Positions 38,399-40,976 of a stretch of 64,000 nucleotides of DNA are shown here, one piece after another (position 1 is the first letter of the stretch; each line of letters starts with the position of its first letter). The stretch is from Desulfitobacterium dehalogenans ATCC 51507 (lineage in GTDB: Bacteria > Bacillota > Desulfitobacteriia > Desulfitobacteriales > Desulfitobacteriaceae): the NCBI RefSeq assembly GCF_000243155.2, contig NC_018017.1:2914001-2978000 (forward strand), given 5' to 3'. The notes below the pieces were generated by a model. It did no database searches and was not told the DNA's origin. It saw nothing but the letters and a program-made list of their open reading frames with translations. Position numbers and translations under genes: made by a program.

Positions 38399-38968
38399 TT
38401 AATAACGGTAAGATATTCGGATTTGATCTTTGGAAGTATTGGTAACACGAAGAACAATGTCGCGAATGAGCTTGATTTCTGCTGCTTCCAGATTGGGAGC
38501 ATAGACAATAACTGCAACTTCATTATTCCCAAAATCAGCGATGGCATCCTTAATTCCACTGATTTTAAGGAGATTCTCTATCTCTTCTTCCTTTTGAATC
38601 TTGTGACTCAGCTGTAGCCATTTTCCTTGGGCTTCCTCCCTTGTTTTTACAACACTGGAATCTAAAAGGGGAGCCAGCATATTCTTGGCCTCTTGCCGGG
38701 AAGCTTCCCGCTGCAGCCGATAATTGACAAAATAATCCCCTCCTTGAGGCAAAGGCTTGACCACCTCCGAGGAAAAATAAATGCTCCGGCTTTCCGGCTG
38801 TGCCTGGACCGGTACACTTTCTTGAGTGGGACGGCTAAAGGTTTCATTGCCGTGAACCAGATGCCAAATAGTGTACAGCAGCAGAAACGCTACCATGACA
38901 ACTCCCACCAGCAGCCATTTTTGTCCTTTGCTTAAATCACCCCAACGTTTCAGAGTCATGATTTTCAT
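38399..38968 (-). CDS. spoIIIAH: Stage III sporulation protein SpoIIIAH
   Basis: 189 residues. One N-terminal membrane helix (about 20-38) is followed by a region outside the mother-cell membrane with FSSEVVKPLPQGGDYFVNYRLQREASRQEAKNML (in parts GGDYFVNYRLQREASRQEAK) and a C-terminal YscJ/FliF-like ring-building domain (ENLLKISGIKDAIADFGNNEVAVIVY). It pairs with forespore SpoIIQ to form the channel linking mother cell and forespore. It overlaps spoIIIAG by 4 bp. Confidence 0.95.
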   Translation of the reverse strand: MKIMTLKRWGDLSKGQKWLLVGVVMVAFLLLYTIWHLVHGNETFSRPTQESVPVQAQPESRSIYFSSEVVKPLPQGGDYFVNYRLQREASRQEAKNMLAPLLDSSVVKTREEAQGKWLQLSHKIQKEEEIENLLKISGIKDAIADFGNNEVAVIVYAPNLEAAEIKLIRDIVLRVTNTSKDQIRISYRY

Positions 38969-39525
38969 AGTACCCCTCCCATGGGCTGAACATTGATCTT
39001 ATCGGAAGGAATATTTAATAAAGTTCGTACGGCGTTATGGATATTTTCCCGGACATTCGGATCGCTGGCCCCCTCGGCAATGATCAGAACTCCTGCAACA
39101 TTAGGCCGTTCTTCCATGACAATCACCGGTTGGCTGGCACCGTTGGGCATCACCAGCTGATTGTTTTCGGTGACCTCTGTGGACTCCCGTGTCCCGCCAC
39201 TTTTATCGGACTCTTTCGTCGTTTTCTTGGTCACACTGCCATTGGTAGCATAATCGGAACGAAGACTGGAGGATAAGGTTACGGATACTTGAACACTTCC
39301 AACCCCTGACATCTGCTGAAGGTTCTGTACCAACTTCTTCTCCATTTCTTTTTCCAAAGTGCTGATTCGGGTAACTTCAACGGGATCCCGGGTCTCCACG
39401 GCCTGATTCATGGGCACCACCGGCGCACTGCCCCCACCTTTGCTATAGAGCAGCATACATACCGCAGCTACTACGAGCACAGCGGGAATTAGGATTTTGG
39501 GCTGGATATCTTTAAAAAGATTCAT
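38965..39525 (-). CDS. spoIIIAG: Stage III sporulation protein SpoIIIAG
   Basis: 186 residues: an N-terminal membrane helix (about 10-28) and a ring-forming extracellular domain (VQNLQQMSGVGSVQVSVTL, then VAGVLIIAEGASDPNVRENIHNAV). In Bacillus it assembles a large ring at the engulfment membranes. Start ATG 39525 has a good GGGAGGAA site. Unusually, it is separated from spoIIIAF by 851 bp of structured non-coding DNA; in Bacillus these genes are adjacent. Confidence 0.95.
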   Translation of the reverse strand: MNLFKDIQPKILIPAVLVVAAVCMLLYSKGGGSAPVVPMNQAVETRDPVEVTRISTLEKEMEKKLVQNLQQMSGVGSVQVSVTLSSSLRSDYATNGSVTKKTTKESDKSGGTRESTEVTENNQLVMPNGASQPVIVMEERPNVAGVLIIAEGASDPNVRENIHNAVRTLLNIPSDKINVQPMGGVL

Positions 39526-39674
39526 GAGTTATTCCTCCCTTACTTTCTAATCTTTTCTGTTTTTATCATTGATCGTGCTGTCAGCAGCATGGGCAACGAC
39601 TGCGAAAAAAAGTTGCAAGCCGGTTGGCTGGAAGCGGATTCTCCAGAAACAGGGGTCCCGGGGCGGGGATCTTC

Positions 39675-39969
39675 AGGATTTTGCTTTACGCCGTTCACTC
39701 CATAAGCTATGCGGAGCAATCTAATCGCTCAAGACCTCCACTCCGTCGGTACCTGCGCCGTTAAGTCATTCTCTGTGGTGTGGCGGCTTGGGCGAAACCC
39801 TCGTCCGGGTTTCGGTCCGGCCAAATCGCTCCTCGAAAGCACTGCTTTCGCACTTGTTCTCAATGGCCGGTTGGAAACGTCCTGTTTCCAACCCGACTCC
39901 GCTGCAGTCTTTCGCAAAGATTGCTTACCTGCTCGCTTAAATCCGTTCACTTCTGTAAAGCAAAATCCT
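39675..39969. repeat. Element A: 295-bp unit with 15-bp perfect terminal inverted repeats
   Basis: AGGATTTTGCTTTAC (39675-39689) pairs with GTAAAGCAAAATCCT (39955-39969). Just inside lie direct repeats CCGTTCACT (39691-39699, 39943-39951). Internal perfect hairpins are CGAAACCC/GGGTTTCG (39793-39814), CGAAAGC/GCTTTCG (39834-39850) nested in CCGGCC/GGCCGG (39817-39870), and GGTTGGAAAC/GTTTCCAACC (39869-39893). It fits a non-autonomous element or structured RNA. No clear target duplication flanks it. Confidence 0.75.
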
Positions 39970-40088
39970 TGGGCTGCCTTTCGGGTCTGAGCGGTGTGAT
40001 ATAGGTACGCTACCTGACCCGGATAACACTTCTCATCTTTTGCTGGTGCTGCAGCAGCAGCATGGGAGTCTACCCAGAAAATAGATCT

Positions 40089-40340
40089 GAAAAAGGCTCA
40101 TAAAATATGCTCTAAAGAAGTGCTAAAAGAGACCTACAAGCGTAGCTTTACGCACAAGGGCGAACGGCTTTAGCGGAGGGGTGGTCGGGTCAACAAGGCT
40201 TTCTTAACTTGGACGAGCCACCGGTTCACATCAGGTATTACCCAGAGGTTTGGCTTGACTGTTAAGAAAGCGGGTTGACCAGCCCCGGAGCTATAGAGTG
40301 AGCGTTGTGCGCAAAGCTACACGACCCAAGCAGCTTTTTC
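40089..40340. repeat. Element B: roughly 250-nt long foldback
   Basis: Nested arms: GAAAAAG (40089-40095)/CTTTTTC (40334-40340); GTAGCTTTACGCACAA (40142-40157) with 40305-40320, 15 of 16 paired; GGTCAAC (40188-40194)/GTTGACC (40274-40280); and GCTTTCTTAAC (40198-40208)/GTTAAGAAAGC (40261-40271), closing a 52-nt loop. TCTACCC at 40069-40075 and 40376-40382 flanks it and could be a target duplication that includes the spoIIIAF stop codon. Confidence 0.7.
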
Positions 40341-40376
40341 ACCCACTGCCGGCACTGCCGCAGGCAGTATGAAAAT

Positions 40377-40976
40377 CTACCCTTCCGTTATAATGATCTG
40401 TTCCCTGGGCATCTGCATAAAGACAGCTACTTTATCCCGGATTTCCAGAGCTGCTGCCGACAATACCGGCTCCTTATCCGACTTGGGCTCATCCATGCTG
40501 ATCACAATGTCTTCAATAGGTTGGATTCCCTGTTCCTCGGGATCCAAATGAATCATAATCCGGTTGATGCGAGGTATATCTGTCAATCCTCTTGAGCCTT
40601 CAGCCAAATCCACGTTCACCTGAAGCTCCTTAACTCCCTCAATTCCGACGCTTAAGGCTTTAATCTGGTTGACGACGATGGCTTTGTACTGCTCTTGCAC
40701 TGCATTGGTACCGATGGTCTCGCCCTCTTCCCCAGAGGCAAGAACCGCCAACTCCTGGGCGGAGCTTTCGGTCCAAGCCGGTATTGTGCTCTCCATGGTC
40801 ATTCCCAATAATGAAGTAATGGGAGTAAGGATCGCCGAAATGACAAACAATCCCATAACCAGTTTGACGAAGCCCTTCATGGACTTATTAGGGAGCAGCA
40901 TCTCCAGAAAGCTTGCCAAAAGCAAGATGATAGCTAAATTGCGAACAAGAGTTTGTAAACTCTCCAAAAACCTCAC
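40377..40976 (-). CDS. spoIIIAF: Stage III sporulation protein SpoIIIAF
   Basis: 199 residues. Two N-terminal membrane helices (about 7-28 and 33-55, MKGFVKLVMGLFVISAILTP) are followed by a soluble domain with QVNVDLAEGSRGL. It is a component of the SpoIIIA channel complex. The last codons (ITEG) are intact, but the stop falls at the very edge of the structured insertion. The gap to spoIIIAE is 4 bp. Confidence 0.94.
   Translation of the reverse strand: MRFLESLQTLVRNLAIILLLASFLEMLLPNKSMKGFVKLVMGLFVISAILTPITSLLGMTMESTIPAWTESSAQELAVLASGEEGETIGTNAVQEQYKAIVVNQIKALSVGIEGVKELQVNVDLAEGSRGLTDIPRINRIMIHLDPEEQGIQPIEDIVISMDEPKSDKEPVLSAAALEIRDKVAVFMQMPREQIIITEG

Follow-up and report, generated by a model that had tools for sequence, protein, structure and literature searches.

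The spoIIIA operon of Desulfitobacterium dehalogenans ATCC 51507 raises the question of whether a large structured stretch of DNA within it serves the spore genes or has only lodged between them. In the window, the whole 64,000-nucleotide stretch of chromosome that was analyzed, the spoIIIAF and spoIIIAG coding sequences lie 851 bp apart (39526-40376). A preliminary description, made from the sequence alone, pictured a gene-less, hairpin-dense spacer of two modules between intact genes, and the physical part of that picture is confirmed. By Pfam, spoIIIAF (PF09581, E 9e-40) and spoIIIAH (PF12685) are intact; spoIIIAG has no Pfam match and is collinear with its orthologues in relatives, to which it is 46-96% identical. 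No conserved protein is apparent in the gap, where none of five open reading frames tested matches Pfam. The hairpins exceed chance on both strands (minimum free energy z = -4.7 on the plus strand and -4.3 on the minus strand, with none of 20 shuffles as low), and a perfect inverted repeat of 15 bp lies at 39675-39689/39955-39969. Alignment of both flanks to the closest relative, a genome of the same genus (G002), delimits the inserted DNA, which spares spoIIIAF, spoIIIAG and the spoIIIAG ribosome-binding site. Both modules, A and B, are borne out; hairpins of a third type, C, separate A from B and follow B, with a degenerate C preceding A. The copy thus has the order C-A-C-B-C, spans about 39570 to 40386 and lies antisense to the spoIIIA operon. 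Its features are as follows.

39545-40375, no strand assigned: whole insert, 831 bp, not present at the orthologous AF-AG junction of G002 (flank alignment).
39570-39610, plus strand: degenerate C hairpin on the A side, a 74% direct repeat of the C lying between A and B (reading of the sequence).
39665-39981, plus strand: module A, a branched hairpin closed by GGATTTTGC/GCAAAATCC (match to covariance model R2; covariation).
39870-39892, plus strand: A tip hairpin, GTTGGAAACGTCCTGTTTCCAAC, nearly invariant (alignment of A copies).
40016-40087, plus strand: hairpin C between A and B (match to model R1, E 4e-12).
40126-40334, plus strand: module B, a hairpin of about 200 nt with internal loops (match to model R3; covariation).
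40215-40254, plus strand: B apical core, 93-98% identical in other genera (sequence comparison).
40323-40386, plus strand: hairpin C after B, overlapping the end of spoIIIAF (match to model R1, E 3e-6).
40377-40380, minus strand: GTAG end tag, whose TAG is the spoIIIAF stop codon (sequence).
40377-40976, minus strand: spoIIIAF, intact flank (PF09581).
38965-39525, minus strand: spoIIIAG, intact flank with its ribosome-binding site kept (orthologues in relatives; sequence).

Module A contains an optional inner block and ends in the tip hairpin, of which the GTCCT loop persists even in copies whose stem has been replaced. Some copies of B have extra hairpins at fixed places. Two forms of the B apex, CAGGTATTACCC and GCAGAAAGCAGCGGGG, are interchangeable within a single genome (window 40215-40254 and the B alignment). 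A peripheral hairpin, GAAAGCCTCCAGTGGAGGGTTTC, is found with close variants in B of this genome (L017, L044, L164, L205) and in A of another genus (L036), as if hairpins were moving between modules. C is an imperfect palindrome ending in CTAC; the consensus of this end, GGCATGGCCGGCTAC (GTAG on the opposite strand), is lost in part of the copies.

The insert is not alone in its genome. Dozens of copies are found by blastn, and covariance models built on aligned copies (R1 for C, R2 for A and R3 for B) give 83 A and 75 B matches, which resolve into 95 loci: 55 A-B, two A-B-B, 21 A alone, 14 B alone, one B-B and two with inverted copies of A. Together they occupy 44 kb, or 1.0% of the chromosome (4,321,753 bp). 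Model R1 adds 84 C matches at E <= 1, the weakest of which are doubtful. With the assembly in a single contig and the element present at about 95 independent sites, misassembly of the AF-AG gap is unlikely. In all 57 loci that hold both modules, A precedes B on one strand, and this strict order weakens another candidate explanation, the chance stacking of units at CTACYC sites. Promoter and terminator scans remain at chance level, and the replication-strand bias of the repeat is weak and varies with the assumed terminus.

The same operon in relatives bears directly on regulation. In 10 of 12 relatives the AF-AG gap measures 19-130 bp (19 bp at the G002 junction, and an aligned-end distance of 37-130 bp in nine further genomes); in the remaining two it is 218 and 404 bp, the sequence there running into a divergent spoIIIAG start. 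The insert is found between AF and AG in none of the 12, so that the site is empty where a cis-regulatory RNA of the operon would be expected to be conserved. The preliminary description had proposed three identities for the spacer, and only one of them holds up. A structured regulatory RNA controlling the ratio or timing of AF and AG expression would suit DNA with a position inside the operon and strong structure on both strands. However, in addition to the empty sites in relatives, the approximately 94 other loci adjoin unrelated genes, orientation to genes is random, A-B is antisense to the operon and the AG ribosome-binding site is intact, and this explanation is very improbable. Nothing speaks for removal of the DNA during sporulation: there is no recombinase inside, no gene is interrupted, and related copies occupy 94 other loci. 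The third proposal, a composite of non-autonomous mobile elements, agrees with the roughly 95 loci, the empty orthologous sites, the modular A/B/C construction and the lack of genes. The AF-AG insert is thus probably a mobile passenger and not a spore-gene switch, and for the spoIIIA copy the simplest view is a gain in the D. dehalogenans lineage, tolerated by the operon. The insert could have a side effect on AF/AG expression. REP hairpins can serve as weak attenuators or as barriers to exonucleases, and by analogy the insert could do so in spoIIIA.

Comparison with G002 shows other clear gains besides spoIIIA (L003, L005, L007, L162, L206), along with older copies occupied in both species (L026, L172, L180). 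At some sites each species keeps different parts, either A-B versus A (L004, L016) or palindrome-deleted remnants (L002, L174). Three apparently empty G002 sites (L002/L109, L174/L227, L028/L117) are deletion remnants and are not counted as gains. Short direct repeats flank the copies at L162 (CCTACT), L019 (CTTCTC) and spoIIIA (TCTA) and are lacking at other junctions; the repeat has no sharp ends, and at many junctions a clean duplication cannot be seen. The gaps occupied comprise 69 between unidirectional, 18 between convergent and 4 between divergent genes. Orientation to the flanking genes, called as longest open reading frames and not from curated annotation, is random (89:74, p 0.27). 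At five loci (spoIIIAF, L005, L006, L026 and L162), the GTAG end of C supplies the TAG stop codon of the neighboring gene.

These properties recall REP elements. GTAG REPs are palindromes of 20-40 bp with GTAG at one end; they are intergenic, found mainly between unidirectional and convergent genes, and their ends often supply the TAG stop of flanking open reading frames (PMC3733652). C is likewise a palindrome tagged by GTAG at one end, and the repeat shares the intergenic position, the preference for unidirectional and convergent gaps (69/18, with 4 divergent) and the TAG stops at five loci. Unlike a GTAG REP, C is about 70 bp long and is accompanied by A (about 320 bp) and B (about 210 bp), and neither a RAYT gene in the genome nor a repeat-flanked RAYT is found. 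REPINs consist of two inverted REPs, span about 100 bp, form hairpins and are moved by RAYTs; they are non-autonomous units with compensatory changes, and their solo forms resemble remnants of the composite unit (PMC3116915). The present repeat is similarly a non-autonomous hairpin unit with compensatory changes and with solos that look like composite remnants, but its C copies stand around A and B as direct repeats, not as an inverted pair, and the unit is 600-850 bp long. Since it departs in unit size, in RAYT association and in the lack of an inverted REP pair, the repeat is not filed under REP or REPIN. BOX, RUP and ERIC are modular, MITE-like repeats that are gene-less, intergenic and structured. 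The repeat resembles them in all of these respects, although it is much larger and no terminal inverted repeats were found. We call it a variant among the interspersed, gene-less, hairpin-forming repeats of bacteria.

The best reading is therefore a large non-autonomous mobile repeat that is REP/REPIN-like, with no claim to membership in either group. At a probability of roughly 0.68, the insert is one copy of such a gene-less interspersed repeat, which spreads, or once spread, in the manner of GTAG-tagged REP/REPIN elements. In the putative mechanism, the element would fold into hairpins as single-stranded DNA, and an HUH/Y1-type enzyme, or a different enzyme recognizing the GTAG hairpin, would join it beside a GRGTAG target. 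As this target would often be a stop codon, genes would be spared; copies may later decay through loss of A or B and deletion of palindromes. Several observations weigh against a REP/REPIN-like repeat, including the lack of a RAYT in the genome, the direct C copies, the blurred ends with many junctions lacking a clean duplication, and a plus-strand preference and cross-family core conservation in B that go beyond the needs of a selfish hairpin.

The search for a mover gives few candidates. PF01797 matches in D. dehalogenans comprise IS200-type TnpA at two loci only, and this search found no RAYT. Other genomes of the family have RAYT-like genes (about 260 aa), with scores of 77.9 and 79.5, slightly below the NCBIfam cut-off of 80. 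Two genomes (G003, G009) carry the repeat without a PF01797 match, two others (G006, G014) have PF01797 matches without module A, and none of A, B or C flanks the RAYT-like genes read in relatives. A RAYT as mover was thus rejected: it is missing from the genome, not co-distributed with the repeat and not flanked by it. Both IS200-type TnpA copies (L136, L137/L138) contain an in-frame TAG at the identical place (TR*NCKYHIVF). Desulfitobacterium encodes pyrrolysine, and read-through of this codon is conceivable. Inverted pairs of A in G020 and G021 were considered as the ends of an autonomous transposon and set aside; their interior consists of tandem hairpin repeats of about 115 bp in which no transposase is seen. 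In two Desulfosporosinus-like genomes (L154:1501-2440 and L155:1500-2440), inverted A-like hairpins enclose such a tandem array of approximately 115-bp hairpin units, located between an RNase E/G-like gene and its neighbor.

A DDE transposase offers a different route, in which the repeat would be a MITE-like composite moved by, for example, the IS1182 family that carries B in G040. There, B sits within a 2.03-kb IS1182 element (NF033551, 449 bits) that is 99.7-100% identical at the four places read and has different flanks at each, and the possible 6-bp direct repeats at L162 and L019 would agree with such a mover. Like the repeat, the IS element holds B, upstream of its transposase; it differs in having IS ends and a transposase and no recognized A or C. 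At these four places (L271-L274), B is located between the promoter of the transposase and the end of the IS and has the opposite orientation to the transposase. However, the ends of the repeat are unrelated, not the mutual inverted repeats of a MITE, and do not match IS ends. Moreover, another G040 copy of B (L270) is shared with a sister species outside the IS1182 element, and B in G040 consequently looks like a passenger of the IS. Movement by a DDE transposase is accordingly improbable.

The folds of both modules are conserved. Scored on structure-blind MAFFT alignments, with 500 shuffles and a partner slid by one to three columns as controls, both modules show strong compensatory base-pair change: of 53 pairs in B, 30 have changed on both sides with the pair kept, and of 49 in A, 26 have done so. 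No shuffle reaches the observed values (0/500), and sliding the partner leaves 4-12 pairs. At sites common to D. dehalogenans and G002, the pairs of A show 18 two-sided changes that keep pairing, 6 one-sided changes that keep it and 7 that break it; the corresponding numbers for B are 6, 18 and 13. Much of the A signal is due to two sites with different copy subtypes (L004/L111 and L016/L121), which may have undergone gene conversion or received a second insertion. Concerted changes could also arise without selection, through template switching in hairpins.

An RNA role of one strand should leave a clear excess of G-U over A-C on that strand. Among pairs present in the predictions for both strands, A has 30 G-U against 31 A-C and thus no strand preference, as expected if pairing matters in DNA, and B has 65 G-U against 37 A-C (p 0.007), a plus-strand preference. 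Within the genome, the better-folding strand is plus in 61 of 68 B copies and minus in 59 of 75 A copies, and plus is the more stable strand in all 10 B copies folded from other genomes. The strand data favor a DNA-level palindrome for A and leave room for RNA in B.

B is also the more widespread module. Within the class, 33 of 46 genomes from the window's family contain A, against none of 37 from outside the family; when the A tip was searched for as an exact match, with the D. dehalogenans genome left out, the only named genomes to have it were Desulfosporosinus and related MAGs. B occurs in 12 of 398 genomes across the phylum, six of them outside the family, where the apical core is common and the stems differ; for the weakest matches (35-50 bits), part of the score may be one that any long hairpin would earn. 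Single B copies in two genomes (L258, L259 and L264 in G078 and G077) lie in sense orientation within operons, before a murD-like gene and before leuB, and the copy at the leuB site is common to two species.

It may be, then, that the repeats are a family of functional structured RNAs, with B and perhaps A transcribed and acting in cis or trans and the copy number reflecting that use. The B core kept in several families while stems are replaced, the better plus-strand fold of B in both own and foreign copies, and the pairing maintained at sites common to two species speak for such RNAs. Against them stand the random orientation to genes, the unrelated neighbors, the strand neutrality of A, the large turnover of sites between sister species and the absence of an Rfam family, and on balance this account is unlikely. 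A related and rather doubtful possibility, put forward tentatively, is that B is a structured RNA element (or single-stranded DNA element) of a new and widespread class, with its own function. Several families of the phylum retain its core, GGTTCAC(A/T)TGCAGAAnAGCCCAGAGGTTT(T)GG or the CAGGTATTACCC variant, with other stems around it, and A-B would be the vehicle that has multiplied B to about 1% of the genome.

The mobile repeat favored here appears to be undescribed. Rfam 15 covariance models give no match at gathering thresholds and only chance-level matches at permissive ones, so that no group II intron, HEARO or other catalogued RNA is recognized. Searches of viral contigs, phages and plasmids as carriers likewise give no match. 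The D. hafniense DCB-2 genome paper makes no mention of repeats, and we could not find a description of this one in the open-access literature, to which the search was confined, subscription papers being outside its scope.

The repeat warns against taking a structured spacer in the spoIIIA operon for a sporulation control element. With about 95 loci and 44 kb, it would stand among the larger and the more numerous of the structured intergenic repeats known from bacteria, and the extent of its compensatory changes is one that would usually count as proof of an RNA function. The different strand behavior of A and B, together with copies at the same sites in sister species, makes it a testable question whether covariation in a bacterial repeat arises from selection on RNA, from selection for mobility as single-stranded DNA, or from template switching in hairpins.
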